Assembly (NCBI GenBank): GCA_023078555.1
Contig: CM041198.1
Coordinates: 2,406,800-2,470,799 of the forward strand
Direction: 5' to 3'
Length of the DNA stretch: 64,000 nt
Source: Ulva prolifera
Taxonomy: Eukaryota; Chlorophyta; Ulvophyceae; Ulvales; Ulvaceae
In this document: one piece after another, positions 1 to 60,416 of the stretch
Layout of the letters: every line of letters begins with the position of its first letter
How positions within the stretch are numbered: the stretch's first letter is position 1
Position numbers and translations under genes: made by a program
The notes under the pieces: generated by a model
Databases searched by the model: none
What the model saw: the letters and a program-made list of their open reading frames with translations, nothing else
Told to the model about the DNA's origin: nothing

Positions 1-3000
1 CCGCGCAGCGCACGCCCCAGCCGAGGGGCGACGGGGAGCCGTCAGAGTTCTGGTGGAGGAAGAGCTGCAGCGGCAGGAAGGTGCCGCCGGCCGTCACCCT
101 GCAGGGCGCACCGCCTTGGGACACGTGCTGTGAAATCAGACGGCCACTGCATGGCGGAATGACAGCGCAGGATGCGAAATGTCGGTGTTGGTGGACCGTG
201 CTGCGACCCAACGCATGATGCTGAGGCCGCAGCCGAATTATATATACGCATGATGCGTTGGGCCGCAGCACGGTCCACCAACACCGACATTTCGCATCGT
301 ATATATAGTGTCGCTTGGCAAGGACGTTGAGTCGATGGGTGAGGGCAGAGTCCGCCTCTCAACTGAAATGTCGCGTCTTATTGTGAAAAGTGCCACTTGC
401 GCTGTAGCATCTAATTGTGAAAAGTGCCACTCGCGCTGTCGGCCAAGGCAGCCCGCCAATCAGGGCTCTCCAAGCGCACCACGGCAGCCAGCATGCATAT
501 TAGCACTGACGCACAGCAGCCATTGTAGTCAGTCTGAGTCAATAGAGCAGGCAAACAGCTGTGTAGACAGAGCACTGTTGTCAAACAAGCATGTTCGTGC
601 GGGCCCGGCGCATGCGGCATCGTGCCTCTAACCCTCTCGCACACCTCTGCAGCATGCAGGGGAGCACACAAACTGCGCCGGCATGGGCAATCGCAGGCCG
701 AGCATGCCAGTGCCGCCCAGGCTTCGAGAGTCAATCAAGGCCAATACAGCACAAGCAGGTCGCGCACGCCCTGGCCTCGCGTGACCGGGGATGCAAGGGG
801 ACGCACGATCTGAGGGCGCAGGAGCAGCCTGGGTCACACTCGACCAGCGGCGTGTGGTTGGAGAACGCCTCGAGGCACCCCGTCGGCCCGAGCCGCACCG
901 TGCCAGGATCCCGCAGCCGCGCGCACTCTGCACAGCACAGCACAGGTTTTCAGGCCACTGCACAGCACAGAGCAGCAGGCGCGGCGCGTCCTCGGTGCAG
1001 CACAGCACAGCATGGCAACGCATCTGCACCGTACAACACAGCACATCACAGCACAGCACGGCAACGTCTCTGCATAGTACAGCATAGCACAGCACGGCAA
1101 GGGCTCTGCACAGCAGAGCACAACACAACACATCCGTGCAAGGCCTCAGCACAGTACGGCGCTGCATGTCAAGCATACAATTCGCTGACCTGCCCGGGTG
1201 ACACTATGCATCTGCTGTCTGTGGACAATGCACCATGCAGTACAGATCAAGTCTGCGGAGGACGGACGTGTCACGCAGAGACACGAAAGAGGTGCAGCGA
1301 GGTATGCATGCATGTGAGCAGCAGGAGGCCGCACTCGCTCCGCCGGTGCGTGCGCAGCCGCCCCACATGTTTGCCGTCTGGAACGGCGGGTACACGGTGT
1401 CCAGGAACTTTCGCGCGGCGGGCGTCACGGGCAGCGCGGCGGGGTCGGTGCAGTAGGTGAAGCCGTCGGGGAAGATCGGCGGCGGCGCGAGGCCGGAGGC
1501 GCGCAGCGCAGCCGGGTCGTCGATCACCGCCGGAATTGGAAAGGCCTCCGCCCCTGCCGAGATGTCCGCGCAGTACACGTGACTTTGGCCCTGCATGCAT
1601 GCACACAGTCGGCGCCGCATTCACATGGACGGGGGAGATTGCGTGCAACACGAGTCCTCAAACATTGACTGAGCCGGTGCGGCATGCGTTGTTGACGTTG
1701 CAGATTATTTATGCGTCACGCATGCATGCAGTGCATGCATTGCCCTTCGGAAGGGGACGCACCGGGACAAGCTCCGGGATGCGGCTGTGTAGTGCGGCAA
1801 GGGTGCTGTGCGGGAGGAATGCCCTCCAGTAGTCCCTCGCCTCCGCCTCTGCCTGCCCATGAGCGGCAGAAGTGCCCGAGCCTCTTTTGATGATGGTGCC
1901 TGCCGCCCCGCCCGGCGCGCTGCGGCGGTGTCTGCCGTGTGTGCGGCGCCGCGCGGCTGCTGCTCTCGTGCCCCGCAGCAGCCCCGACGCGGCCGCGGCA
2001 GCAGCGCCGCGTTTGCGCAGCATGCGCGTCTCCACGACCAGCGCCGACTCCGTTGCATTGGCGCCAAGCGCCCTGATGGCCTGACGAAGAAAGAAAACCG
2101 CCCCCGGACCTTTCACCTTCCCTCGCACGGTGTCGCAGCGCTTGCAGTACACTGACGAGAGATGACGTGGACTCACCAGGCACAAATGGCACATACTCGC
2201 AAGCCCTGTGCCGATGGGAGGCTGCTGCAGCGTAGCACATGGCGCTGCCGCAATGACAGCACCACCATCGGCTTCACCCTCCGAGCCGCTTGCCGCACTG
2301 CAGTTTGAGTCATCGTCTACGCGCTCACTCTCCCCTCCATCGGAATGCTCGTCCTCTACAAACGAGTCGGCCTGCGCGCCAGCGCGGCTGCCGCCTTCGG
2401 CTGTGGCCGGCCCTGCCTCGCCTGTCCCCCCATGCACTGCGTCAGGGTGCACCCTATCGGCCGTGGCAACTGCATCACACTCCCGCAGCTTCTGTGCCCT
2501 TGCAAGTACAGCTGAAGTCTCTGTGTTGGGGCCAAGCTCACGGACGGCCTGCCGGAGGAATGCCACTCCACCCGGGCCTTTGACCTTCACCGACATGCTG
2601 TTACAGCGGCGGCAGTATGACCGCTTGTAGACACAGGGCTTGACGAGGCACACACGGCATCCCTTCGCAGACGCAGCGCCAGTCCGGAGACACAGCCTCT
2701 TTGCAGGTGGCACTGCCGTGACGCCATCACCATCATCATCAGCATCGTCATGTTCAGCACCTGTGTCGCGCAACGCACACGAGTCTGACTCCTCCTCATC
2801 GCGCATATCACCTGGCGCGCTCATGCCAGCTGCAGGTGGAATCCCGCCCGCGACACCTTCCCTGCAGCTGCGCTCCGCAGCGGGCTCAACCTGCATAGCA
2901 CGCGCATGCGGCAAAGCGCCGGCATGTTCTCGCGCAGGGCTGTCGCACGCGGCACGGGCGGACCCACCGCGAGCGCCTCCGTCCGCTGCGGCCGCCGCGG

Positions 3001-6000
3001 CAGAGCACACATGATGCGCGAGCGCGAGCCGCGCGGACTCGCCGGTCCTCGATCGACCGGCCGCGGGGACCGCAGCCGCCTCCCCCCACTCCGCGTGGGC
3101 CTGCACCGCCCGCAACACCTGCACGTCTGACAGCCCGGAGGACCTGCCGTGTGCACGCAGGATCCCCCTCGTCGCACGCATGCTCTCGGCCGGCTGGGCA
3201 ATGCACACGCCCGTGCACAGCCGCAGCACCCGCCGGCACTGACCGCACATCTCGGAACTGCTGGCCGCGCTCAACTCACCGTCAGGCATCTGCTCCTCGC
3301 AGATCCCGCATCGCGGACGAGCCGGGAGCCCAGGGGGGGCATCGTCGCGCCCATGCATGGGCGCGGTGCCCTCCACCGACTTGCCGAAGCGGTCGTGAGC
3401 TGAGCACAGCGCAGCAGCCGCTCCGACGGCACCAGCACCGCACTCCGGCGCCGGGGCGCATGCCGGGACCCCCATTGCGTCATGGGGGTCCGAGCCTGCC
3501 GGTGCAGCTGCATCGTCGCACCCATCGCCGGCAACCCCTGCGTCGACGCCCTGAGCCCCGTCCCCCTCACCTGGCTCAGGAACTTGCTCATGCACCACCA
3601 CAGCCGCGGCACCCGCTTCCGGCTCCACGGCACACTCCGCCGCACCGCCGTGGCCGGCCCCCCGGCCCGCGCCCTCGCCCCCGGCAGCGCGCTGCGGCTC
3701 TAGTTCTGCATCCCCGGCAGCAGGCGCTCCTGCGCCGTGCAGCGCGGCATGCATGACGGCAACGCCGTCCTCCCCGAGCCCGCGGCTGCGCAGTTCTGCG
3801 AACGCAGCGCGCAAGCGCGCCGGTGTGACCGCGTCGCGCGCGAGCATGCTCAGCATGAGGTCGCAGCGCTGACAGTGCTGCGAGCTCTTCTCGCCGCCGG
3901 CGCCTGCCGTGGGGCCCTCGGAGCTCCCGCAGATGCCGCACTCACGCGCCGCAGACGCCGAGACGTCGTGGGCGGCGTCACACACGACTGGGGCCGCAGC
4001 CGATGCCGCAACACTGGCCTCGGGCGGGGGAGCAGCTGACGCCGCACTGGCTTCGGCATCCTCAAACTGGGAATCGAACGAGGCCCCAGCATTGCCATCA
4101 TGCGGAGGACGGGCTGTGCCCGGACCGGCGGTCTCATGTGCGGACTCTGAGGGGGCTGCACTTGTGCCTCCACCAGTAGCCATGGCAGCACCGTGCATCA
4201 CACACCCAGCGTCAAGACTGTCCGAAACACACACTTGTACGACGCGCAGCGGCTCTGCACCGCCACTGCTCGATGCATCAGCGCCACACGGCGTATGCAC
4301 TGCCAACGCATCACCAGCAGTCACCGCCTCTCCCGGCACAAGCGCGGCGCATGCGCCTGTGAGGGCGTCGCCGCGCCGCTGTGGCTGCTGCTGCGGTGTG
4401 TGTCCACAAGCTCCGCCTTCACCTCGGCGTGTGCTCAGCTGCATGGGCTCCACAGCATGCATGCGTGCTGCCCGCACGCCACCATCACTGCTGCTCGGCT
4501 GCATGGGTCCCACCTCCACCCTGGCAGCGTTGCGCCCCCCGGCCACTGCATACCCCACACGCTGCTGCCCCACACCGCCCGCCCGCCGCGGCAGCGCAAT
4601 GCTCGAATCGAGCTGCCGCACCGGCACACTCCGCGCCGTTGGCGCGCATGCATCAGGAGCTTGCGCGCCCGCCACGCTGCTGCCGGCATCCATCTGCAGG
4701 GGGATCAGCGCCTGTAGCCGCCAGGCCGGTGGCGCGGCTGCGGGCGCGGACCCCGACGGCCCGGCTCGATCAGCGCCCTGGGCCACACCACCCAGCGCCG
4801 CTGTGGCCCCGCGGCGTCTCAAGGCGGCGTCATCGCTGTGCGACACAAGTTGGCCACACGCGCGCTGCCGGCCACCCGCACCGCTGCCGCTCGGGCCGCT
4901 CACGGCCGGCCAGTCCACATGACACTCCTCACCACCACCCCCTCCACTGCCATCCTGTTCGATGGTGACCCGCCGACGCCGCCAGTGGCCATGCCGCGGG
5001 CGCAAACCCTGTGGCTCCATGACTTCAGGCGGGTCCTGGGATGGCACCACAGAGCCGCCGGCGTCAATCGCAGTGAGGGTGTCGTCGGCGGGGGAGCCGA
5101 CGCATGGGTCGGGGGGGTTTCCGGCGGCTGGGGCGCGGCGGCCGTTGGGGCGGCTGTTGGGGCGGGCCTGCTCGGCGGTGATGGCCTCGACAGCCTGATC
5201 GATGAGCCGCTGCCGCTTGGCGCCAGTGGCAGTGGGGTGCATGGCCTTGACCTGCAAGCGCCAGCAGTTCGAATGATGCATACTGTAGTATGTGAACAAG
5301 CACATTCTATAATACAAATCACACAGGGCCACAGAACACACAAATCAGCCTATGTGGTAGCCCCACGGCCAAGTGTTACTGCACGCACCGTTGCATGTGG
5401 GATGCAGAGACTCGATGGTTTATTGCACATCGATGCCTGTCTGAAAATTTTGCAGTGGAAATATGAGGGAATACAGCAGCAGGAAGCTCCCAAGCCCCTC
5501 TGCCGAAGGGGGCTTCTCAGTGACTGCCAGCACATATCATGACGCAGTGCTGGTGGTGCGCCATACAACTATCAACTGACGCAGAAGCCCTCAATGGAGC
5601 AACTGAAAACGCACCCAACAACAAGAACACCACATCGATGGTACACAAGCGATCAATACAGCGCCATCGCCAACACGGATGCAATCATGCAATGGAGCCG
5701 CGAGCGCCAGCGTTCATGCAAAATGCCCACCTCGCATGCAGAAGTTGCATGAAACCAGACACAGTGTTGTGGAGGGAAACCCACTCCGCGGCAGATAGAG
5801 CTGGAGAGCTGACACAGGTGTTGAGCTGTGCATCACACGCAGGGCCGCACCGTGTCTGCAGCGCGCTTGGCGCGCCAGCTGGAGAGCCCCTTGCGCGTCC
5901 AACCACCCTTGTAGACGCCGCGCGGGACCGTGCCGTGGGGCTGCGAGTGGCCGGGCACGCCTTGAAGTATGAAGACGTACTCCGTGGGCCACCCCAGGCT

Positions 6001-9000
6001 CGCGGCACCGGGCTCATCGACATACCGCCTGCACCGCCACGTCAACAATTAGGACGCTACTTGGAGGCCTCGTCCGGGCGAGGGTGTCGTCCGTTCGACG
6101 GCGAATGCTGTGTGCTACAAGGACGGCGGCGAGAGGGCAGGCAACACTGTTCGCACAGCATGCACAGCATGCACAGCACAAGATCAGGTCCCCGGCACTG
6201 TGCACCCAGGCCGCAGCCAGAAACCCTGACAAAACACACAGCCCACTCAACACCACCACAACGCCAAGAAGCCCCGGACCCGCACACGCATGCAATCCAT
6301 TGTAAGACATTCAAGGATTTGTTCCAGCAGGGCAGATTCTAGACGGCAGGGGAGGAGTCAAAGGAGGCCAGGGAGCCGCACTTGTGGCACTCGATGATCA
6401 TGTAGAGGCCGTCGTAGACGTACACTCGGCTGTCCTCCGGCCGTTTCTTCGCCTTGGCGAGCACGACCCGGATGGGCATGCGTAGCGCGTACGCCTTTGC
6501 TAGCGCCGCGTTGCCCTGCACGACCAGCGCGCGCGTGATTCCCTTGTGAATGCGGACCGCAAGGACCAGGTCATCTGGTGAGGTGGCAAGGTGAAAGGGC
6601 AACGGCCACGGACGGAGGACGCAGCGGACAGGCTCGCGCCCGCCGGTGGTCTGTGCGGGTGGCGGTGGCGGCGTCTGAGGGGTGCATGCCGGCACTGAGG
6701 GGCGCGTGCTGGGCTGGGCACCGGGGCGGCGAGTGCCGAGGATCCCGGTCCCAATGCATGCAGGGACGCCCTGACCCACACACACGTCGCATGCATGTGT
6801 GCACCGACAGACTATCAGCTGGCAACAGCCACACGAAACTTGTAGGCACTACATGCATGATGCACATGCATATGGAATATTAAATGCATGGATCTCATGC
6901 ATATGCACCTACTCACAACTTGCTCGCACCAGCTCCACCTCCACCAGCTCGCACCTTTGTAAGCTTCTGGCTCGTCGAGAGCCGGTTCGACTTGGGGTCG
7001 CGGCCGCCCTCACCGCGGTACTCGAGCACCGCGCCGCCGTCGGCCGCGGGCGTGCTGTACCCCCCGGAGTCCACGATCGAAGTCGCGAGCGGGAACCCCG
7101 CTGACGCCGCCGCCGCCGCCGCCACAGCCTGCGGGCCGCCGACCGGCGCCGATCGGGCGGGAGCTACCAGGTCAACCTTGCCGATGCCGTGCATCTGGGG
7201 CAGGTGCACGCCGAGAGCGCAGAGCTCGGCGCGGCCGTGGAACTCGGCGCCGATGGCGATGCCGAGGGGGTGGCCGACGATGTCGGGGACGACGTGGCCG
7301 GCCGTGTTCAGCACGCCGCACGCCTAGCATGCAGTACGGCAGTCAAACGGGCGGTAAAGCATAAAGAATTACAAAGACACGGAGGCGAGTACAGCCGCAG
7401 GAGCGGCGTAAGGCACGTGCGTAAGCAACAAAGACAGAGCAGCCTCGAGGGCTAGTCCGCACACACAGAGTGGGGAGGGGGAGGACTGTTCTGCAAGGAG
7501 AGGAGACAGCACCGCCGGAAGACCACAAACGCACAACGGAACCCCGAGACGCTGACATACGCCAGCCTCGACCACAAATGTACCGCGCAGGACGACAACG
7601 GAATCGCCGCACATGCGTATCGCCGCACGTGTGTACACCCAACGCCGGATCGCGACAGACATACACACGGCGCGCCACTCCGCGGCGCCACTCCAACACC
7701 CACACAAGCACACATGCGCACACACCGGACGTCTGTGTAGCCATGCGGACGACATGCATGCGGGTGCGACTATGCAGGGTGACATGCGGCCGCCTCATAC
7801 CGGGACATCTGCCCGCTATGCATGAGCAGCATGCATTTGTTTACCCTGGGAGTGACCTCCCACACTATGCATGACAGGCTTGACACACCTATGCTTGCAT
7901 GCGGTTTGATCATGCACCGTCCAGGCTGTGTGCTGATGGGTGATGTATGCAGGCATAATATGCATGGCTGCCATGCATGCTGTGCAGGCCGAGGTGTGCA
8001 CCTGCATGTCTGGCCGTTTGGCAGAGGCGCTCCGCCCATTGACGACGGGCGCCCTGCACACGGCGGCCTCCCCCTTCTGCACCAAGCTGGCGATCTCCTC
8101 CAAGGCTCGTTGTTTCCGTGCTTTCTGCGACGACTCTGCCCCGGAGCACTTCCTGGCGGGGGGGGCCTTTGCGGATGACCGCTGATTGCTTGTGGATGCC
8201 TCGCCGCTCTTGTGCGGCTGGTCCGCGGCCTCATTTTTGAGGCGCTCGACCAGGCCCGGCTGCACAGCACCATGGCGCGTGTCACAAGGACAAAGTTGGG
8301 GGTGCGGGCAGCACCTCTGGGACAATGCAGCATTGCGTCGCGTGTCAAGTGGGGCCTGTGTTCATGTAGGTGCCGATACAATTGACAGAGCTGAAGCTGG
8401 CGGATGCGTTGCAGGTACTGTACAGGCAGATGGTGCGCTTGAGTCACTGTGGTCGAAATTCTTTGGATGTTGTACCCGTGCACTCATGCTATTGAAGTGC
8501 AAGGGCTATCATCAGTGCAAAGAAATCTGCGCAAGGTGAGGCATTGAAGCAGGTAAAAACGGAGGCGCACAACATCACAGAAACCGCTGATGTTTGGAAT
8601 TTTCATTCAGATGTCGGTATCTGTTCGACGGAATGCATTCGTATCCCATGTTGAGTATCACCGTCCACATGTCCAGTGGAGATGGCTGGTGCATGGTCAT
8701 GCACACCGTCGAGAAACTAATATCATACGACGCATAGAGCCACAGACAGCATGTAGTTGCTGCAATTGTTAGGCATGGCATATGCAGAGACTGGCATGCA
8801 TCAGCAGAAGTTTAACGCCCGACAGGCTTGATGCACTTGCAGCTGGCGATTATCGTGAGCGCACCTCCCGTCGAATCGCTTGATGCACAAGCCGGTGATT
8901 TCGCAGCAGCTCCTGTGCGCGCTTTTCTTCGGATGGCTGGACAGTCCTGCGGAGGTTGCACCCCAGTCCGTGCATCTTCGAAGTGCTGGCCACCGCCGAT

Positions 9001-9164
9001 TCCTCGCCAAGACCAGCATACTTGGGCGGAAGATTTATGAATGGCGTCTCTTCTGTCCTGCATAATGCATACGCGGTGATCGCTCGATCCAAGTCTGACA
9101 GAGCAGTATTCGCCCGTTCGTGCAGATAATGCGGAGGCCAGCCGTGAGTTCGGGCCATAGGCAT
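1..9164 (-). CDS. SUVH-like: SUVH-like histone H3 lysine-9 methyltransferase with giant zinc-module insert (partial, runs off left edge)
   Basis: Exons (minus): 9164-8865 (tentative first), 8259-8002, 7323-6955, 6515-6382, 6028-5851, 5251-1763, 1590-1335, 927-807, 98-1 (continues off the window). Phases agree at every junction. The first two exons end in a plant-SUVH-like run leading to KRPDMQ. The SRA-YDG domain follows: PLGIAIGAEFHGRAEL, SIVDSGGY, RVYVYDGLY, then GWPTEYVFILQG. The next exon is 1,163 codons of low-complexity protein with four CxxC modules. Pre-SET begins at CADISAGAEAFPIPAV, continues with ECDPGCSC, and the SET domain opens with LGWGVRC at the edge. In plants such proteins bind methylated DNA through SRA and write H3K9 methylation. 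The order SRA, insert, pre-SET, SET differs from plant SUVH only by the insert. The pre-SET looks poor in cysteines in this model. The catalytic SET core lies outside the window, so activity is inferred. Confidence 0.78.
171..298. repeat. Near-perfect inverted repeat (46-bp arms)
   Basis: Bases 171-216 and 253-298 are reverse complements with one mismatch in 46, separated by a 36-base AT-rich spacer. It lies in the last visible intron of the SUVH-like gene (99-806), so any intron transcript would fold into a long hairpin. It could be a small foldback transposon or a source of hairpin RNA. Confidence 0.85.
379..440. repeat. Short direct repeat, two copies
   Basis: A block beginning attgtgaaaagtgccact and ending gcgctgt occurs at about 379-403 and again at 415-440, with a single base change. 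It follows the hairpin in the same intron and may be part of one small repeat element. Confidence 0.7.
930..1150. repeat. CAGCACA-type minisatellite
   Basis: Many imperfect copies of cacagcacagca-like units fill the intron between the 1590-1335 and 927-807 exons of the SUVH-like gene. On the minus strand they become tgtgctgtgctg, so the tract directly abuts, and may serve as, the pyrimidine-rich region before the acceptor at 928-929. Long apparent reading frames here are by-products of the repeat. Confidence 0.75.
1763..5251 (-). other. Giant exon: four-module CxxC/CxxC insert between SRA and pre-SET
   Basis: One uninterrupted exon of 1,163 codons joins the SRA block to the pre-SET block in phase 0 on both sides (acceptor at 5252-5253, donor gtgcgt at 1762). 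It is mostly Ala/Gly/Ser/Glu low-complexity sequence. Four cysteine modules stand out. Module 1 (about 3945-3790) has ECGIC, 18 residues, then CQRC. Module 2 (about 3315-3150) has RCGIC, 17 residues, then CGQC. Module 3 (about 2665-2530) has CRVC-x11-CRRC, and module 4 (about 2195-2065) has CHLC-x11-CKRC. Modules 3 and 4 both continue with a KVKGPG motif and an FLRQA(V/I)R helix ending in LG, so they are clear duplicates. A basic KRLCLR stretch precedes module 3. The spacing suggests zinc binding; I know no named family with this pattern. Confidence 0.7.
5851..7323 (-). other. SRA-YDG domain (three exons of the SUVH-like gene)
   Basis: Exons 7323-6955, 6515-6382 and 6028-5851 encode about 227 residues matching the SRA (SET and RING associated) fold. 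The visible marks are the entry strand around AIGAEFHGRAELCALGVH, then GIGKVDL, SIVDSGGYS, YRGEGGRD, SQKLTKGNAALAKAY, RMPIRVVLAK, VYVYDGLYMII and EYVFILQGVPGHSQPHG. Introns start gtgcga (6954) and gtgcgg (6381); the middle junction splits a Lys codon in phase 2. In SUVH and UHRF1 proteins this domain flips out and reads methylated cytosine. A long Ala-rich loop replaces the usual short linker before SIVDSGGY. Confidence 0.85.

Positions 9165-16429: not shown

Positions 16430-16482
<53 letters not shown>
16430..16482. repeat. Poly-C run, 53 bases
   Basis: An uninterrupted run of 53 cytosines (poly-G on the other strand). It makes a run of prolines in one plus frame and glycines in a minus frame, which is why frames stay open here. 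The length may be affected by assembly or polymerase slippage. Confidence 0.95.
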
Positions 16483-21584: not shown

Positions 21585-21887
21585 GGTTATGGGCCTGCCG
21601 CCTTCCACTGCTTAGCCGGTACCGTTTATAGAAAGGCTCCTAGGTCTTGAGACTCGATAGTGATGCCGGTTTCTTACGGTAGGTGAAAGCCTGGTAGGTA
21701 GAGCTTCAGGTTCGGTCAAACGGCCATCGACTGGTCGCTGAGGACTGAGAAGCACCGCTGTGCACAGATTTGAATCTGCGGGAGCGCAGTGCATAAGATA
21801 CTGTTTGACGCAGTGTGACGCAGGTTGTGTGTCGGTCAAAGTTTTTTTTGGTTCGACTATCGACGCAACAAGTCAAATCGACGCAAC

Positions 21888-22701
21888 GATGGGAATGTCA
21901 GACTTTATGAAAGTCACTCAATTGACCATGACAAACTATCACCGATGGAAAGGGGACATTCATTCTGCTTTAATTCTCTGTGGATTCTGGCCGGCTGTGG
22001 AACAGAACGCAGAGTACGCGGCGCTCGACGCTGCCGGGAAGCTTAAGATGTCACAAAAAGCCCTTGCAGTGATACGAATGAACACGTCATCAGGTCTGAG
22101 GATTCATATCGACAGTGCCAATTCAGCAAAGGACGCTTGGGAAGCACTGGAAAGCATATTCACGACTGAATCTCTCGGTGCAAAGAATCGGATGAGGGAT
22201 GAGCTGCACGCGTTGCGGCGGGAAGAAAAAGAAACAGCATTTGAGTTCGCTAGCAGAGCCAAGACTCTGCAATGCAGAATGTTAGATGGCTGTGGAATTC
22301 GTGTCCCGGATGATGAAATCATTCACGCGGTCATGAGAGGGCTTGGTCCGGAGTATACAATTTTCAAAAGATGCATGTCTCAAACCGTCAAGAGCATGAC
22401 TCTAAATGAATTTTGCAATCGACTGCTCGAGGAGCAGCCAGACTCTTCGATGGAACAATTGGAATCGGAGCTCCAAGCGTTCCATGTGCAGAATTCAGGT
22501 GGCAGACAAGCCAAAGCCCCGCCACCTAGGAGATCGCATAAGCCAAAAGCAGAGGATCCACCAAAATCGAAGCGTTTTACAGGGAAATGTTTCAACTGTG
22601 GAAAGAAAGGACATCGTAAACCGGATTGTCCAGCTTTGAAAATGCAAACTCCTACTGACCAAAACGCCAGTCGAGACATCTGTAACTCAGCAGAGTTATG
22701 A
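21888..22701 (+). CDS. gag-like region of the copia element
   Basis: The capsid-type region has the features of the copia gag family: the block LTMTNYHRWKGDI near the start, an internal ALRREEKETAFEFASR stretch, and a CCHC zinc knuckle, CFNCGKKGHRKPDCP, near the end. The product would package element RNA. It belongs to a young insertion but is treated here simply as part of a mobile element. Confidence 0.85.
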
Positions 22702-22714
22702 GAAGCCCAAGACT

Positions 22715-25700
22715 GTGTCATGGGCGGAACCGCTGGAAGTTTTTCATGTCTCATATGACTTGTTTCACAAGCGACTAGGGCATCCATCGCCCACTGTTAT
22801 CAAACACATGTGCAAACATGATTGTTTGAAATGCATGCCAGAGAAGCTAGGTGCACCAAGCCATGTCTGTGAGTCTTGCATGAAAGCGCATCAAGCCAAG
22901 TTGCCTTTCGATGAATCTGACTCAATCGCTGACAAGCCAATGACACTGGTTCACGTGGACACCATGGGTCCATTCCCACTGCCGAGTATGTCAGGTGCAA
23001 GATATGCTGTGGTCATGATCGATGACTACTCTCGCATGATAGCAGTGGTATGTGTCAAATCAAAAGCTGACATACCGGAGCGATTGACGTTCGCGCTGGG
23101 GCAGCTGCAACATTTGTCCAGGCAGCAGATGTTGTTCATGAGGTCAGACTACGGGTCTGAGTTCATAAATGCCAGAGTTCGAAAGTTTTTGGACTCGCAA
23201 TTCATCAAACATCAGAAAAGCTGCGTTTACACACCAGAGCAGAATGGCAGAGTTGAAAGATCAAATCGGTCACTTATGGAAAAACTGCGGGCTTTGATGT
23301 TCGAATCACATGCACCAGCATGCATGTGGGAGGAGGCTTTGAATACGGCTGTGAAGCTGTACAACATGACAGCCTCCACACGCAGAAAGAAGACTCCATA
23401 TGAGTTATTCTGGGGGATTAAACCAAGCTGCGATGCACTCAGAGTTTTTGGGTGCAAGGCTTTTGTTCAAGTACCCGAACAGAAGAGAAATAAGCTTGAT
23501 GAGCGATCAGTGGTGGGTACCATGATTGGTTACTCACAGTCATCCAAGGCGTACCGGATCCTGATTCCGGATGGTGACAGGTTCAAAGTGACAGAATCTA
23601 GACACGTCAGATTCGACGAAAATGCGCCTGGGCCATGGATGACGAACAAGTCTTGCACAGACGAAGGCATCGATTTCAGTGACAACGTATTGATGCCGAA
23701 CATGGGGAGAATGTTGCAGCAGCAGGATTTCCACCCTGCAGCCGCAGGTATCCAGCAGCAGGAAGGTGCAGGTGTTCAGCAACAAGACGTACAGCAACAA
23801 GATGAAATGCCTATGCATGAGCCAGAAGTTGCAGGACAGCAAATAGATGATGCAGATGAAGTGCATGAACCGCATGAACATCTAGATGAGGCTGAGCTGA
23901 ATGCACATGACAACGATGGTCAGGTGGCAGCTGCACAGGACCTGCCGGTAGCTGCACAGGAACAGGGAATGATTGATGCAGACATGCCAGAATTGGAAGA
24001 TGCATCAGTCGCATCAGATCTACAGGACCCAGAGGAACTGGACGATCATGCTCCTGGGGAGCAGGTGATGCAGGATCAGATAGCACATGAGCCAGAGGCT
24101 GGGGAGCCACCAGCACAATTTGGCAGGCCAAAGCGAAACACCGGGCCACCAGCTAGATATGCAGATTACAGGGCATATCATGCAGATTTGCAGGAGGAAC
24201 CCAGAACATTCCATGAAATCAAGTTCAGACTGGACAAGGAGCAATGGTATGAGGCAATCGCAAAGGAAAATCAGGACATGATCAAAAACGGGATGTATGA
24301 TGTCATTGACTGCAGCGATATGCCACCGGGAACCAAGGCAATTCCAACAAAGTATGTGTTTAAGTTCAAAAAGGATGAACTGGGCCGAATTGAGCGATTC
24401 AGAGCCCGATTCGTGGCCATGGGATGTGAGCAAAAGGAGGGCATTGACTACGTTGAGGTTTATGCACCGGTCAGCAAGTATGCTACGGCCAGGATGCTTA
24501 TGTCAGAGGTAGTGCAGAATGACTTGGATCTGGTGCAGCTAGATGTCACAGCAGCGTTCATGCACAGTGACCTCGAAGAAACTGTCTATGTCAAACCTCC
24601 GCCAGACTATCCAATCAAAGGAAAGGTTTGGAAGCTTAACAAGGCCATGAATGGTCTAAAGCAAGCAGGGCGTGCATGGTTTATGCACCTCAAGAGATGC
24701 CTGCTCAATCTGGGGATGACAGTGGCTCACGCAGATGAGAGCCTGTACATTTTCAGAGCTGATGGTGACGATAGGGAACCCACGTATGTGCTCGTGTACG
24801 TGGATGACCTCATTCTTGCAGGGAAGAGAAACAAAATTCAGTGGATCATTGAGTCTCTTAAGAAACAGCTGGAAATCGTTGACAAAGGAGATGCAAAGTT
24901 GTTCTTGGGAATGGAAATCATTCGAGACAGAGCCGCCGGAACGCTGTGGCTAGGTCAGAGTCAGCATGCATCTGATTTACTCAGCAAGTTTGGGATGACT
25001 CAGGCAAAGGGTAGAAAAACTCCATTGGATGTCAAACTCAGTTTGCAGAAGTTTGATGGAACTGCCAATCAGAAAGATCTGAAGCATTATCAGAGTTTGA
25101 TTGGAAGTCTTCTCTATCTAGCAAACTGCACAAGGCCAGACTTGGCGCAGTCTGTGGGTTTGCTGGCACGCTTCATGTCAAATCCGTCGCAGGAGCACAT
25201 GGAAGCTGGCAAGCAGGTTCTCAGGTACCTTGCAGGTACCAAGGAGCTGGGGCTATCGTTTAAAAGGTCCAGCCCTAACAGCATCAAGGGATATTGTGAT
25301 GCCGACTATGCAGGGGATTTAGATAAACGCAAGTCCACGTCTGGATATGTGTTCACTAGATCCGGGGGAGCTATTTCATGGAGCTCCAAATTGCAGAGCA
25401 CAGTGGCACAGTCCACGTGTGAGGCTGAATTCATAGCCGCGGCACATGCAGCAAAGGAAGCTTTGTGGTTGCGCGACCTTCAAGCAGAATTCAGAAGACG
25501 CGTTGACCCAGTGATGATGTTTGGTGACAATCAGGGAGCTCTCAAGCTGATTCATCACCCGCATGCGCATCAACGCACCAAGCACATTGATGTGGCCCAC
25601 CGATTTGTTCAGGACAGAGTGGAACGTGGGGAGCTTCAAGTAGAGTACATATCTACTCATGATATGGTGGCCGACTGCATGACCAAGGGAGTGCCCATGG

Positions 25701-25753
25701 CTAAGTTGTGGGAGAACATCCGGGACATGGGACTAACCAACAGACCAGCATAA
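22715..25753 (+). CDS. pol-like region of the copia element (integrase, reverse transcriptase, RNase H)
   Basis: About 1,000 residues. The order is the integrase zinc-binding region (FHKRLGHPS with a following CxxC), the catalytic integrase core (HVDTMGPFP, DYGSEF), a long acidic Gln-rich linker with repeated QQQ, reverse transcriptase (QLDVTAAFMH, the YVDDLILAG active site) and RNase H (GYCDADYAGDLDKRKSTSGY). Integrase before reverse transcriptase is diagnostic for Ty1/copia rather than gypsy. Confidence 0.92.
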   Translation: MSWAEPLEVFHVSYDLFHKRLGHPSPTVIKHMCKHDCLKCMPEKLGAPSHVCESCMKAHQAKLPFDESDSIADKPMTLVHVDTMGPFPLPSMSGARYAVVMIDDYSRMIAVVCVKSKADIPERLTFALGQLQHLSRQQMLFMRSDYGSEFINARVRKFLDSQFIKHQKSCVYTPEQNGRVERSNRSLMEKLRALMFESHAPACMWEEALNTAVKLYNMTASTRRKKTPYELFWGIKPSCDALRVFGCKAFVQVPEQKRNKLDERSVVGTMIGYSQSSKAYRILIPDGDRFKVTESRHVRFDENAPGPWMTNKSCTDEGIDFSDNVLMPNMGRMLQQQDFHPAAAGIQQQEGAGVQQQDVQQQDEMPMHEPEVAGQQIDDADEVHEPHEHLDEAELNAHDNDGQVAAAQDLPVAAQEQGMIDADMPELEDASVASDLQDPEELDDHAPGEQVMQDQIAHEPEAGEPPAQFGRPKRNTGPPARYADYRAYHADLQEEPRTFHEIKFRLDKEQWYEAIAKENQDMIKNGMYDVIDCSDMPPGTKAIPTKYVFKFKKDELGRIERFRARFVAMGCEQKEGIDYVEVYAPVSKYATARMLMSEVVQNDLDLVQLDVTAAFMHSDLEETVYVKPPPDYPIKGKVWKLNKAMNGLKQAGRAWFMHLKRCLLNLGMTVAHADESLYIFRADGDDREPTYVLVYVDDLILAGKRNKIQWIIESLKKQLEIVDKGDAKLFLGMEIIRDRAAGTLWLGQSQHASDLLSKFGMTQAKGRKTPLDVKLSLQKFDGTANQKDLKHYQSLIGSLLYLANCTRPDLAQSVGLLARFMSNPSQEHMEAGKQVLRYLAGTKELGLSFKRSSPNSIKGYCDADYAGDLDKRKSTSGYVFTRSGGAISWSSKLQSTVAQSTCEAEFIAAAHAAKEALWLRDLQAEFRRRVDPVMMFGDNQGALKLIHHPHAHQRTKHIDVAHRFVQDRVERGELQVEYISTHDMVADCMTKGVPMAKLWENIRDMGLTNRPA

Positions 25754-41009: not shown

Positions 41010-41183
<174 letters not shown>

Positions 41184-41646
41184 CCGATCGGGTATCAAGC
41201 CGACGCCAAACCCACGACCCACTGGGGCATCGGCGTCAGCAGGGCTACACACAATTCTGAGGTTGGACTGCATCGTACGACACGCCAGCAGTGCACACGT
41301 AGCACATTGTACATGCCACATGTATCATGTCGCATGATACATGTGCCTATGGTCTGACACATCCCCGTGTACCCGCACTTAGACACTGTGCAATAAGTCA
41401 GCGTCTAGCCAGTCGGCCACCACAACAGACTGAGCTGCAGAGAGGGTTGCTCGGGATTCCCGGGCCGGGAATGTGCAAGGGATCTGTGGAGCAGCCACTG
41501 CTCACAGGTGGGGTACCTGGCATTCACGGCGCGCATCTCGCCTGGTACGAGGGCCTGAGTTTGTCTGAGCAGCATACCCAATACACCAGGGATCCAGGGG
41601 TAGTGTCCCCAACTGTAAAAGGGGCACATTACACGACACGTGGAAC

Positions 41647-41717
41647 CGTCCAAGCCGGGAATCGAACCCGGGTCTCCCGCGTGGCAGGCGAGTATTCTAC
41701 CACTAAACCACCTGGAC
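41647..41717 (-). tRNA. tRNA-Gly (GCC)
   Basis: On the minus strand the molecule reads from GTCCAGG to CTTGGAC plus discriminator G, 71 nt. Acceptor stem of seven pairs (one G-U), D arm with TTTAGTGGTAGAA, anticodon loop CTGCCAC (anticodon GCC) closed by a five-pair stem, and T arm ACCCGGGTTCGATTCCCGG. A and B boxes are intact and there is no intron, so it should be a functional nuclear glycine tRNA. Confidence 0.95.
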
Positions 41718-43989
41718 ACCGCAGCTTGCGGCTGGAGTTGTGAAACGAGTTCTTGTGATTCAATTGCTAGATTGAGCGTATAATTATTTTTTTTTTGCGA
41801 TGAATTTATGCACGGGCAGAGCACGCCACGGCCAGTGTTCTTGTCCCCGACCTTTACTCTCGTCCGGTGCTATCCCCCCCAGCTGGCACACATCATGCAT
41901 GCACACAAGCTAGCGCACGGGCCGCAAACATCAGCATACACATCATCCCCTTGTAACACACATCATCCCCAACAGGTCATCTTTGTCCTTGTAACACATG
42001 CTCCTTTGGGTGCTGAGGTCGATGGCCATGCATTCGAGTCACGACGCGAACTCAGGTCCTTGGTTAAATTTTTGAGTCCTGGCGTTGCCTCGCTGCATCC
42101 CCAAGTACAGTGCTCTAAATCCACAGGTGTACCTTAAGATTGCTCCATGTATATGTGGCTCTCTGTTGATCAAGGCCACCAGAACCGCCTCCTCATATGG
42201 CCTTGCCATTCATGCCAGGGCAACAGCCTGAGGCCATGTACTTCGTCACCCCATTGCTGTTGAAGGCGCGCCATATATCGCGGGAAGGTTAATATGATGT
42301 TTTAGCCCGCATGTCGCGGGAAAGCGTGCCACCGTTGGACACAGAGTCCAGTCAACTTCTTTGCCTCCGCATCTGTCTGCAGGCTGCCTGTGGTGCTGAT
42401 GGAATGATTCAAACCCTCAGGGCTTGCCAAGCGTCACACATTGTGTAGTCTTGATCCTATCTGCACCAGCGCGCCTCTCGCGATCGAGGACTTTCCAGAA
42501 CGAAAACTAATCAACGAATTCGGCACTCAGCTTGATACATACGAGCGCTCTCAAGCTAACTCTGCATCGGACCCGGAACCAGTCGCACCTTCGAAAGCCG
42601 AGCCTTCACTATGGATTCTGTCGGGAAATTTGCCGCGGTCAACCTCAAGGCTCACGAGTCTCGAGATGAGAACAGCTCTCCGATCTCGATATCAGGCAAA
42701 CCTGTCGACTGTCGTGTCCACAACACACACGCCGGGAGCCCTCTGAAGGTGTGCTCCTCCGGTACCGAATGAGAGAGATTTCGGCGCTGCTACTGTGGTG
42801 TCTGCGGGCATTAGGCAGAGCCCCTGTGCCTGGAGTTTTCGAACACAAGATCCTCGTCACGGACATGCACGCGAGACCGCTGAGAGCACGCACCCGCCTT
42901 GATTGACCGCTCTGCAGCAACGTGTTGACGATTTTGGTTTTGGTTGGGGCTGTGTTGGTGTGTCCGGGGGGTCTGGCTCCGAGGATGCCTTGCGAGCTGG
43001 CAGGTACCTACGTAGAGCCTGTCCGTTCGCCTAGGCCTGCGTGGGCTGCCCCGCCCCGGAGACGCATCTGGCGTCATGAAACAGCCATTCTGTAGATATA
43101 TGCTTGCTTGTGGACTGCTGAACCGTGTTCTGGCGCAGCTACGAGCTCCCTGGGCCCCTTAATCTGCTGAGCACGCCCTGACGTGCTGTGCCGTGCTACG
43201 CCATGATGCGTTAAAAGCGGGCGGGCCACGTCACGGTACCGCCGCATCCTACTCCGAAACTGAACTGATTTCATCATATGTTGCTTGAAAGCTCCCACCA
43301 GTGCATCGCGCGTGTTTGCGTCGTGTCATGCTGCGCAAATGTAGCCTGTCACTCCTGATCACCCGATCACAGCTATACCTAGCCAAGCGTCTTCCAACAG
43401 AGCAAACGGGAGAAGACAAACACCATGAAAGGATCTCATCCGAAACAACAGAGCCATATGTTCCTTGCCATGCCCGTGGGGCCTCAGATGGGGCCCCCTG
43501 GTCTGCAGCCATGCCCTCAGATGCTGTGCATTTGCAGCTGCTAGTGATCATGTGGTGCACCCCACGGCGCTGTTGGGGACTCGCTGTCGGGGACAGTGTT
43601 CCCAAGCACTTGCCTGCTCAGTCCAGCATGCCGTTCATCATCCGGCACTAATTCAGCTCCACACAGCTCCGTCCACGAACTTGCCAATATTGTATATGTG
43701 TTCGACGTTCACATGGTGGTATCTGCGCCACTGGCGGGCCTCTGCTCATCGCGCCCACCTACATGCTGCCTGTAGTCACACTGGCAGAGCTTAAAACAGC
43801 AGCTTCCGTTCCGATGTGATGCAAGTGCACCAAGTGATCAAGTGCATCAAGTCATGCACTGGGCAGACACGAGCAGCATGGTGCACGGCCGCAGCACAGC
43901 ACGCAGCACGCAGCACAGCACGCAGCACATGGCCGCAGCGCCAACAAGCAGCCGCATGTGTTCACTTGAATCCACACCTGAAACATCAG

Positions 43990-58500: not shown

Positions 58501-60416
58501 GGCCAGGATCCGGAGCGCACGCTTGCAATCGCCACCCCATCGTAACCTGAACCCGGGGGCCTGCTGGCGTCCGTTTGGCACCGTGTGCCGACCCCAGCAG
58601 GCCCCAGTGTTTGTGTCTGCCGTGCCACAGCATCCGTGAGAAGTGTCACAGGTCTCTGGTGACCATTCGGCATGCAGCTGGCCGTGGGCGCCCATGTTGT
58701 ATCTGTTCCAGGCAACTCTGCCTTGTACCCGCCCGCGCACCCTGCCGTTTCTCAATGCGCAGCTGCGCTCTCGCCAAAGCAGGTGCCGCACCAGACGACA
58801 GAGCAGTTGACGCGCGTGCGCAGGCGGCGGCGAGCAAGGTCGCGTGGTCGCTGCCGATCTCGACGATCGCGAAGCAGCGGGAGGACATGGAGAACCTGTG
58901 CGTGCACATCCTGACGGCGTACCGGCGGCACTGCGCGGCGCGCTCCTCCAACGAGGGCCAGCTCATCCTCCCGGAGTCCCTCAAGCTGCTGCCGCTCTAC
59001 ATGTGCATGTTCTTCAAGAGCCGGCAGCTGAGCGTCGGGCCGCCGGACGGGCGGGCCGCGGCGCTCGCAGCGCACCTCTGCGCGACCCCGCGCCGATTCG
59101 CGATGACCGTCAAGCCCCGCCTCATCGATGTGCAGGTGCGGGTGCAGCCTGTATGTAAACATGCATGCATGGGCGCATACGCACAGCATCTATCGACGTG
59201 CAGGAGCGGGTGCCATGCGTGTTTATCAACGGCACATCGTGTCCACTCCTTCTGCATGGCGCTGTGTGTGTGGTTCACCCTTGTGGCTTGGCGCACTACC
59301 TTCTTCGGCGCCCCTTCAGCTTGGCACGCTATGCTCGCCCTCCTGCCACGCCCCCATGGACACCACCCGACCCCATCACACCAACCGTGCTGTTGGTCTG
59401 TGTTACGATGTCAGAGGCAGCGAGGCGGGCAGCGCCCGAAGTTGGCGAGCTGTCGATCTGTGTGACTGATACAAGGACCCCAGCACGACCGTCGATGGCA
59501 GACTGACGCGGGGCGGTGGATGTGCAGGCAGCGCACAAGGTGGATGGCCCGGGCGGCGTTGAGGAGTGGCGGCCCGAGGCGTACCTCACCGTCACCGGCG
59601 ACAGCATCGCCGCTGACGGCATCTACCTCCTCGAGAACGCCGTTGACGTGCGCCCCTGCTGGATCACCCTCGCTCTGTCACCCTCTGCATGCATTGAAGT
59701 GACGAGCCTTCTTCGTGCGCGTGCGCGGATCCCGCCTGCGCCCGAGTATGTGACAAGGGCTGCAGTCATGCCTTGCATGCAATCAGCGTTCACATCCCTA
59801 CATGTCATTGGATTGCGTCGCTGGCGCGTTCGCTCACAAGCATGAGCATGTCGACTGTAATACCATGCTCTGTCGCGTCAGGTTGTGTGTACCTGTTTGA
59901 CTCCTGTCAACAATCGCATGTAGGCTACATGATCCAGCACAGCTGCAGCACTCCTTGTGCGTGCCACCCGGTTTTCGGTATGCGACCACACCCATGCCTA
60001 CCAGTGCATTCCCCTCCGCGATCGCCAACCCCTAGATTCACTGACCACGCAACATACCAATAATGGTGCATGCATGCATGCAGATGTTCCTGTACATCGG
60101 GCCGTCGGTGCCGGACAACTCGGTCGCCGCACTCCTCGGCGTCGCCGGCTGGGCCGGCCTCCCGCCGGAGCACGAGCCGCTGCCGCTGCCGCGCCTGCCG
60201 GACTCACCCCTCAACGCGGCCGCCAACAGCCTCATTGACGGCGCGCGCGTGCGCGTGCGCTCATGCATGCGCCTGCGCGTCGTCTGCCGCGGCCGCCCGG
60301 AGGAGCGGGAATTCCATGCGTGCATCGCAGAGGACCGTGTGGCGGGAGCGATGAGCTACATTGAGTTCTTGTGCCACGTGCACAAGCGGATCAGCACGAA
60401 CATATTGAAGCGGTAG
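52553..60416 (+). CDS. SEC24: COPII coat cargo-selection subunit Sec24 (first exon not found)
   Basis: Exons 52553-53979, 54836-55092, 55397-55658, 56272-56679, 57268-57490, 58120-58337, 58824-59135, 59528-59647 and 60084-60416; all phases agree and give about 1,186 residues. The first exon listed opens two bases into a codon, so a short upstream exon with the ATG is missing. Sec24 binds Sec23 and picks cargo for ER-to-Golgi vesicles. Visible parts in order: Pro/Gly-rich N-terminus (about 400 residues), zinc finger TRCSRCRAYINPFVRW with CNLCG, trunk GSVEYVAPQSY to VHMFVTSLPNAG, beta-sandwich QTTGGSLYHYHPW and AGVDCDKSVV, helical part LILPESLKLLPLYMC, gelsolin part DGIYLLENAVD and MFLYIGPSVPD, and the end SYIEFLCHVHKRI. 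Normal length for the family. Confidence 0.95.
54723..54835. repeat. TGTGTGGC minisatellite ending at a SEC24 acceptor
   Basis: Imperfect copies of tgtgtggc, then two copies of tttggaaagtgtggctgtg, run straight into the acceptor gtgcgcag of the second listed SEC24 exon. The usual pyrimidine tract is thus replaced by a TG-rich repeat. Confidence 0.85.
55098..55119. repeat. Poly-C run, 22 bases
   Basis: Starts five bases after the SEC24 donor at 55093 (ct|gtgcgcccc). It is intronic in the model; read-through would give a proline run and an early stop. Confidence 0.95.
56993..57062 (-). pseudogene. tRNA-like sequence, degenerate
   Basis: On the minus strand CTCAGTTGGGAAGGCACCACC resembles a D arm and the 5' side of an anticodon stem, and AAGGGTTCAAATCCCTT is a perfect T arm with B box. 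The 3' strand of the expected anticodon stem is replaced by a GC-rich insert, and no 5' strand pairs with the apparent acceptor TCGTTAC. It is probably a broken tRNA or tRNA-derived repeat inside SEC24 intron 4 (56680-57267). Confidence 0.4.

Follow-up and report, generated by a model that had tools for sequence, protein, structure and literature searches.

Introduction

The plant protein SUVH4 and its relatives are described as binding methylated cytosine through an SRA domain and methylating lysine 9 of histone H3 (H3K9), with CMT3 following (PMC5410703, PMC9861306 and PMC8566409). SUVH4 and SUVH5/6 are common to all of the groups investigated, according to PMC5410703, and for algae PMC10178440 reports SUVH only from Chlamydomonas. 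A green-algal homologue, Chlamydomonas SET3p, is described in PMC8566409 and PMC10178440. In this study, we analyzed a gene on the minus strand of a 64,000-nucleotide stretch of DNA from Ulva prolifera (the window; G000:C3:2406800-2470799), which probably codes for a protein of ~3,050 residues of the SUVH class (SU(VAR)3-9 homologue), and in which the SRA domain and the pre-SET region are very likely separated by one giant exon that bears repeated, putatively zinc-binding modules.

The domain order of the plant proteins SUVH4/KRYPTONITE, SUVH5, SUVH6 and SUVH9, namely SRA, pre-SET, SET and post-SET, is also found in the window gene; its SRA domain is nearest to those of SUVH5, SUVH9, SUVH6 and SUVH4, and its SET domain matches SUVH6 and SUVH4 among the H3K9 enzymes. 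Unlike the plant SUVHs, the window gene has a 1,163-codon linker with modules, a SET domain split by another 1,160 codons and a weak pre-SET region, and its product would be ~3,050 residues long, compared to 518-533 residues in the solved SUVH9, SUVH6 and SUVH4 chains, which are possibly truncated. Like the window gene, SET3p represents a green-algal SUVH homologue with a role on H3K9, whereas the parts of PMC8566409 and PMC10178440 that describe it mention no such module. In a search of open-licence literature, seen in part and with eukaryotic protein databases outside its scope, no paper was found on SRA and SET domains separated by modules of this kind.

Results

Gene model and domain architecture

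The genome comprises 88.9 Mb in 44 contigs, and its PsaD agrees best with photosystem I chains of plants and green algae. The gene was traced past the edge of the window into the adjoining locus L002 (position numbers below 1 lie in L002, where the position is the number plus 9799). On the minus strand, a model of 11 exons and 3,048 codons is open throughout, with all joints in frame and the first stop as its last codon. The putative start of the model is an ATG within an open frame. Donors read GTGCG in 9 of 10 cases and GTGCA in the other, while acceptors read TGCAG in 9 of 10 and GCTAG in one; since the splice sites were chosen by hand for frame and for fit to GTGCG and TGCAG, this uniformity does not count as independent evidence. 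The 4,241-nt stretch 5840-1600 holds 17 GTGCG and 18 TGCAG.

Exon 1 (9164-8865, 100 codons) is an open frame with a GTGCGC donor in phase 0, its upper limit being that of the initial annotation, a brief reading of the window made beforehand from its letters. Exon 2 (8259-8002, 86 codons, phase 0 to 0) runs from a TGCAG acceptor to a GTGCAC donor and has KRPDMQ at its end, directly before the SRA domain. The first SRA (SAD_SRA) part is coded by exon 3 (7323-6955), which as a frame alone matches positions 2-85 of PF02182 with an expectation value (E) of 3.2e-13, and the domain continues in exon 4 (6515-6382, phase 0 to 2; VYVYDGLYMII), for which the frame alone gives E 3.5e-7 and 30.5 bits against a cut-off of 30.7. 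The SRA end (YVFILQGVPGHS) was assigned to exon 5 (6028-5851) from its frame and its TGCAG and GTGCGG sites and has a 16-residue match in the paralogous locus L023 (E 0.005); a Pfam search with the exon 5 frame alone returned no match. Joined, the SRA exons match PF02182 with E 3.1e-26, and compared with solved chains they lie nearest to SUVH5, followed by SUVH9, SUVH6, SUVH4, the TagI endonuclease (4.8e-8) and UHRF1 (0.001).

Exon 6 (5251-1763) is the giant exon, with 3,489 nt, 1,163 codons and phase 0 at both ends. It is followed by exon 7 (1590-1335), which has a phase-0 acceptor (GCATGCAG) and holds the pre-SET start (YCADISAGAEAFPIPAV), and by exon 8 (927-807), which was placed by frame and sites; the latter carries the pre-SET cysteine cluster (ECDPGCSC), partial and Cys-poor by eye, and aligns with the pre-SET region of an H3K9 enzyme when the joined exons are used as query. 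The N-terminal half of the SET domain, with GWGVRC, is coded by exon 9 (98 to -151, that is, 1..98 of the window and on to C3:2406648 beyond it). Exon 10 (-1106 to -4584; L002 8693-5215; 3,479 nt) and exon 11 (-4852 to -5164; L002 4947-4635) complete the model, the latter with RFINHSC, the post-SET motif and the stop; two additional acceptors for exon 11 keep the frame, so that this joint is uncertain by a few residues. The joined pre-SET and SET exons, in which only the first residues of exon 10 were retained, match PF00856 with E 6.6e-12, and the C-terminal SET frame alone matches it with E 2.2e-6. Against the PDB, the joined query matched 76 distinct sequences at E 0.01, and H3K9 enzymes including Clr4, SUVH6 and EHMT2 stand at the top of the best 60. 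Both SET motifs, GWG and RFINHSC, are present in the model, and the post-SET sequence CRCGSTPC ahead of the stop follows the pattern CxCxxxxC and aligns to H3K9 enzymes. Elsewhere in the genome, 8 exon matches to DNA methyltransferase were counted.

The initial annotation had placed SRA exons at 7323-5851 and joined them in phase to 5251-1763, to a pre-SET exon and to the SET opening GWGVRC; when rebuilt from the DNA, these positions and frames were reproduced.

Coding status of the giant exon and its very probable place in the SUVH gene

The open reading frame (ORF) of exon 6 extends over 1,211 residues (5344-1709) and is open past both splice sites. In 300 Markov sequences (12 kb each, of the same dinucleotide make-up) that were scanned on one strand in its three frames, the longest ORF averaged 355 residues and reached 670 at most, and a chance origin of the 1,211-residue ORF was rejected on this comparison. 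The exon 6 ORF was matched with E 6.2e-27 (Z = 200,000) by a profile built on 19 modules from loci other than the window (the outside profile), and of 2,694 ORFs it was the sole one beyond the training set to be listed at E 10.

To compare the exon with its surroundings in other genes, we searched with parts of the gene by tblastn, covering 45 sequences (44 loci and the window). The last part of exon 6 (1849-1763, minus strand; WRAFLPHSTLAALHSRIPELVP), which ends at a GTGCGT donor, is shared: in the window gene as well as L026, L027 and L032, the pattern W..xxSTLxxLHxRVxQxV stands at a phase-0 GTGCG donor, with a pre-SET exon coming next. By eye, the similarity of the tails ends at the donor. 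The pre-SET acceptor is in phase 0 in all four genes (read by eye for L027 and by script for the other three), and the counterparts of exon 7 show 86% identity in L026, 80% in L038/L039, which overlap L032, and 59% in L027. A tail profile built from the three paralogues gave the window ORF E 0.0027 and the stretch E 0.012, the best match outside the training set in the 2,694 ORFs.

The SRA side of the exon is addressed by two further loci. In L023, a single open frame (6856-8712) holds the 16-residue SRA-end match together with three modules, with matches to the first and second SRA exons upstream (1.7e-8 and 8e-6). In L041, a single open frame (673-1947) holds a match to the second SRA exon (E 0.001), a weak SRA-end match (0.40) and one module. 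Because the tail and donor are shared ahead of a pre-SET exon in four genes, and because SRA end and modules lie in one frame at two loci, exon 6 is very probably part of the SUVH protein. This evidence agrees with the initial annotation, which had described one SUVH-type enzyme whose SRA is linked to pre-SET and SET through a huge exon with zinc modules.

A module-free SUVH paralogue on contig C5 (L020) gives a measure of the linker. It has both SRA and SET halves and, as in the window gene, a phase-0 intron precedes the pre-SET exon and another one the exon inside SET. It differs in that a single 346-nt exon covers the SRA end and the linker (by eye) and in that, also by eye, no CxxC module is present and the SET insert is much smaller. 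We also noted by eye that in L020 most of the pre-SET cysteines are apparently lost, and that the SET and post-SET motifs are kept. The insert of ~1,160 residues that had been described as splitting an SUVH enzyme stands as a 1,163-codon exon; as to its nature, it looks like an SRA/pre-SET linker enlarged at a conserved place, rather than like new sequence set into a fixed joint.

The zinc-type module

The module family follows the pattern CxxC - YCxxC - LRxAYxxLG, and the exon 6 ORF has four CxxC..CxxC motifs. The outside profile of 19 modules locates three modules, at ORF residues 469, 896 and 1052. Module 1 (3940-3728, minus strand, as are the other three) reads CGIC..CQRC..LRAAFAEL, with a domain E of 0.0047 and a net charge of 0. 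Module 3 (2659-2477; CRVC..YCRRC..FLRQAVRELG; domain E 2e-11) and module 4 (2191-2009; CHLC..YCKRC..FLRQAIRALG; domain E 2e-9) have net charges of +10 and +9. Module 2 (3310-3083; CGIC..CGQC; net charge 0) is a divergent candidate recognized by its motif alone. The four putative zinc modules of the initial annotation are recovered in three cases by the outside profile (E 6e-27 over the whole ORF), while the fourth, module 2, goes undetected.

The structure of the canonical copies was predicted. The best model of module 3 (predicted local distance difference test, pLDDT, 78) has helices at 25-33, 39-50 and 56-78, and the best of five models of module 4, which span pLDDT 52 to 82, reaches 82 with helices at 25-33, 39-50 and 56-76; in both, the first of the three helices begins at the second CxxC pair. 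Four cysteines of the module are conserved. Among 23 copies, which were chosen for their Cys pairs so that only later residues are informative, 90% or more retain an arginine and a leucine of the helical part as well, although the modules are just 23-48% identical to the first of nine. The mean net charge of the 23 is +5.4, and it is positive in 21 of them. Excluded from the set were four candidates recognized by eye, namely the second copy of L041, in which the frame is broken, the copy of L026, the first copy of L032 and the third copy in the second unit of L023.

No significant match to exon 6 or to the modules was obtained in Pfam, NCBIfam or PHROGs, and a PDB profile search with the modules returned weak or helix-only matches and no convincing relative. 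Matches to DpHF filaments (6.1e-5 and 0.038), which we take to be designed proteins, were discounted because they cover the helical part only and no stretch passes alone. A PHD finger has the pattern Cys4-His-Cys3, whereas the module has four conserved cysteines followed by a helical body. The best Pfam PHD match was 0.016, in 2 of 9 members, and the likeness of the Cys-pair stretch to a PHD finger such as that of UHRF1 (PDB E 0.067 over 20 positions) is not significant; this candidate was rejected. So was the CpG-binding ZF-CXXC domain, which has eight cysteines against the four of the module and is absent among the Pfam matches listed. The predicted models recall zinc fingers of the treble-clef type, a class of zinc-finger folds, in that a helix begins at the second CxxC pair; no sequence relative was found. 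Scans of viral contigs and bacterial or archaeal genomes, which pick up close relatives only, gave no match, in sets that contain few or no algae and thus say little on other algae. The module seems to represent a domain family that has no name yet, and it putatively binds zinc.

A second giant exon interrupts the SET domain

Exon 10, which lies outside the window and was absent from the initial annotation, splits the SET domain with another 1,160 codons. In the window gene, the sequence that matches positions 45-104 of PF00856 comes after exon 10, and positions 1-44 are found in the C5 paralogue in the frame ahead of the equivalent exon. By eye, exon 10 contains about eight copies of an Ala/Pro-rich unit of ~33 residues; it has a single CxxC (QCKPC) and no module of the exon 6 type. 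In the window gene, L026, L027 and the C5 paralogue, the exon opens with EEL at a phase-0 acceptor, and because this opening is common to the four genes, exon 10 also looks like an old exon that has been enlarged.

Paralogues and spread of the module

The distribution of the module was surveyed with a 61-residue consensus of nine modules, four of them from the window; the counts are lower bounds. There were at least 17 places at 8 loci at E 10, and at least 14 places at 7 loci at 1e-3. These loci are the window, C3:2.249-2.255 Mb, C3:2.265 Mb, C3:1.763 Mb, three on C1 (8.109, 8.100 and 2.968 Mb) and C4:4.079 Mb. L023 comprises two SRA-module units, the second of which may belong to the SET gene of L026. 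At G000:C3:1757001-1769000 (L045, L032 and L047), a module-rich exon with five profile matches is followed by pre-SET and by SET with NHSC, and no convincing SRA was found within 4.5 kb upstream. SET ends with NHSC occur in L026 and L047; NHSC is missing from the SET end that L024 carries, which is probably part of the L027 gene. The flanks of the three C1 loci, examined over ~1.5 kb, gave no convincing match to SRA, pre-SET or SET, so that this genome is likely to code for module proteins that stand alone.

Several observations were made alongside. G000:C3:2237001-2272000 (L026, L023, L024 and L027) is a cluster of SUVH-like and SRA-module paralogues ~130-180 kb from the window gene, in which some SRA domains are degenerate. 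The C1 loci L037, L040 and L043 are module ORFs, and L037 and L040 also share a helical repeat, GGGxAxxLxxALxxxxxD, that by eye resembles the second half of the module. Weak low-complexity matches to the first SRA exon at many loci (E 0.021-0.57 at L037) and a 12-residue tail match on the other strand of L037 (E 0.070) were set aside as spurious. In L021 (5390-8595, on C10), RING-like Cys motifs flank an SRA domain on both sides (by eye), a layout that resembles plant VIM/ORTHRUS.

Other features of the window

Elsewhere in the window, Pfam matches mark frames of a Copia-type long terminal repeat retrotransposon on the plus strand (21742-25750; gag, integrase and reverse transcriptase) and a Sec23/Sec24 helical domain in an open frame (58551-59462, plus strand; E 3.2e-17). 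A tRNA-Gly(GCC) gene (41646-41718, minus strand) lies near an 86-copy CA repeat (41011-41182), and an uninterrupted run of 53 C occupies 16430-16482.

Discussion

The explanation that we favor, and that we consider somewhat probable when taken with all of its functional steps, is a single gene for an SUVH-class protein in which the known SUVH loop has gained a tether. The architecture within it, with SRA, a module-bearing linker exon, a weak pre-SET, a split SET and post-SET, is very likely. The SRA domain would dock on methylated cytosine and the SET domain would methylate H3K9, while the strongly basic modules 3 and 4 would form an extra arm that binds nucleic acid or nucleosomes. Such an arm would hold the enzyme on silenced DNA and give it reach to neighboring nucleosomes, possibly in concert with the genome's likely stand-alone module proteins. 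This tether step is the tentative part of the explanation and is put forward as a suggestion. Modules 1 and 2, uncharged and divergent, may have lost the contact with nucleic acid or nucleosomes.

A number of points weigh against this explanation. The gene model was read from genomic sequence alone. The initial annotation's naming of domains is borne out in the predicted protein for SRA and SET, but Pfam Pre-SET (PF05033) stays under its cut-off, with E 0.14 and 13.2 bits against 29.1; exon 8 stops ahead of the usual last Cys of the canonical pre-SET pattern. The Pfam Pre-SET search gave no match anywhere in the genome, nor in the controls, which shows no more than that such a search can miss split exons. 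The tail match of the window is moderate (E 0.0027 against 0.023 for the next best), and the whole exon 6 ORF, used as a query of the genome, matched the window only. The three codon positions of exon 6 have guanine-plus-cytosine (GC) contents of 0.76, 0.64 and 0.70, compared to 0.83-0.91 at the third position in the SRA and pre-SET exons, and exon 10 has the same odd profile (0.78, 0.68 and 0.67). Exon 6 is in phase 0 at both ends, and skipping it would leave the frame intact. Module 2 escapes the outside profile, and modules 1 and 2 carry no net charge. Finally, L027 and L032, which have modules and SET, show no convincing SRA in the flanks examined, and SRA and modules are therefore not obligate partners.

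Among the alternatives, the one that survives best differs from the tether only in the last step. The modules could bind each other or other proteins and, as a homotypic scaffold, gather SUVH and stand-alone module proteins. We regard this as rather unlikely, if not by far. The presence of several module copies in several proteins, including the C1 ORFs that lack a convincing SRA, pre-SET or SET close by, and the predicted three-helix body are consistent with it, whereas the positive charge of 21 of the 23 modules suits nucleic acid better.

It is distinctly less likely that exon 6 is usually skipped, so that exon 5 joins exon 7 to leave an ordinary linker and the long arm is minor or stage-specific. 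The join of exon 5 to exon 7 is indeed in phase and open, and the C5 paralogue manages with its 346-nt exon for the SRA end and linker. Yet all 1,163 codons of exon 6 are open, its modules and its tail recur in other genes, and in L023 and L041, where SRA-end matches and modules lie in one frame, skipping would drop the SRA end.

We give slightly less credit again to the view that, in this GC-rich genome, both giant exons amount mostly to disordered filler, and that the modules, as a repeat in slow decay, contribute little to the enzyme. The codon-position GC of both exons, which is unlike that of the conserved exons, fits such a view, as do the module-free, Ala/Pro-rich units of exon 10 with their one CxxC, the lack of any Pfam match to the 1,211-residue exon 6 ORF at E 1, and the state of modules 1 and 2, uncharged in both and beyond the reach of the profile in the second. 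Against it, modules 3 and 4 are still canonical, and copies as diverged as these keep their Cys pairs and, in at least 90% of the 23, the arginine and leucine.

It is highly improbable that exon 6 forms a gene of its own inside an SUVH intron, although its ORF, which continues past both splice sites (5344 to 1709), could carry a start and a stop. The tail that ends at the donor ahead of a pre-SET exon in four loci, the shared intron and the one-frame paralogues speak against it. The lack of TGTAA, an algal poly(A) signal, from the ORF stop to 1300 adds little, since the 1.2 kb that follow the SUVH stop lack it too (L026 and L020 have TGTAA).

Returning to the tethered SUVH enzyme, a wider picture can be sketched, though as a speculation that we hold to be doubtful. 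The genome may have a lineage-specific chromatin system built on one hitherto unnamed zinc-plus-helix module, common to SUVHs (with SRA or lacking it), SRA-module proteins and module proteins that stand alone. In such a system, the giant proteins would join DNA-methylation reading, H3K9 writing and a multivalent scaffold, and exon skipping could remove the arm.

The SUVH identity of the window gene and its conserved introns are ordinary; taken as a whole, it is a real and unusual member of a known enzyme family, with an apparently unnamed module. In plants, SUVH proteins couple DNA methylation to H3K9 methylation, and those whose chains have been solved are compactly built. In the window gene, the segment that connects reader and writer has about ten times the length of its counterpart in the C5 paralogue and carries a series of zinc-type modules, and the catalytic domain is interrupted as well. 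The module merits a profile entry as a domain family, and the design bears on whether reader and writer must sit close to each other for a self-reinforcing loop, and on whether an extra module adds chromatin contacts to such enzymes.

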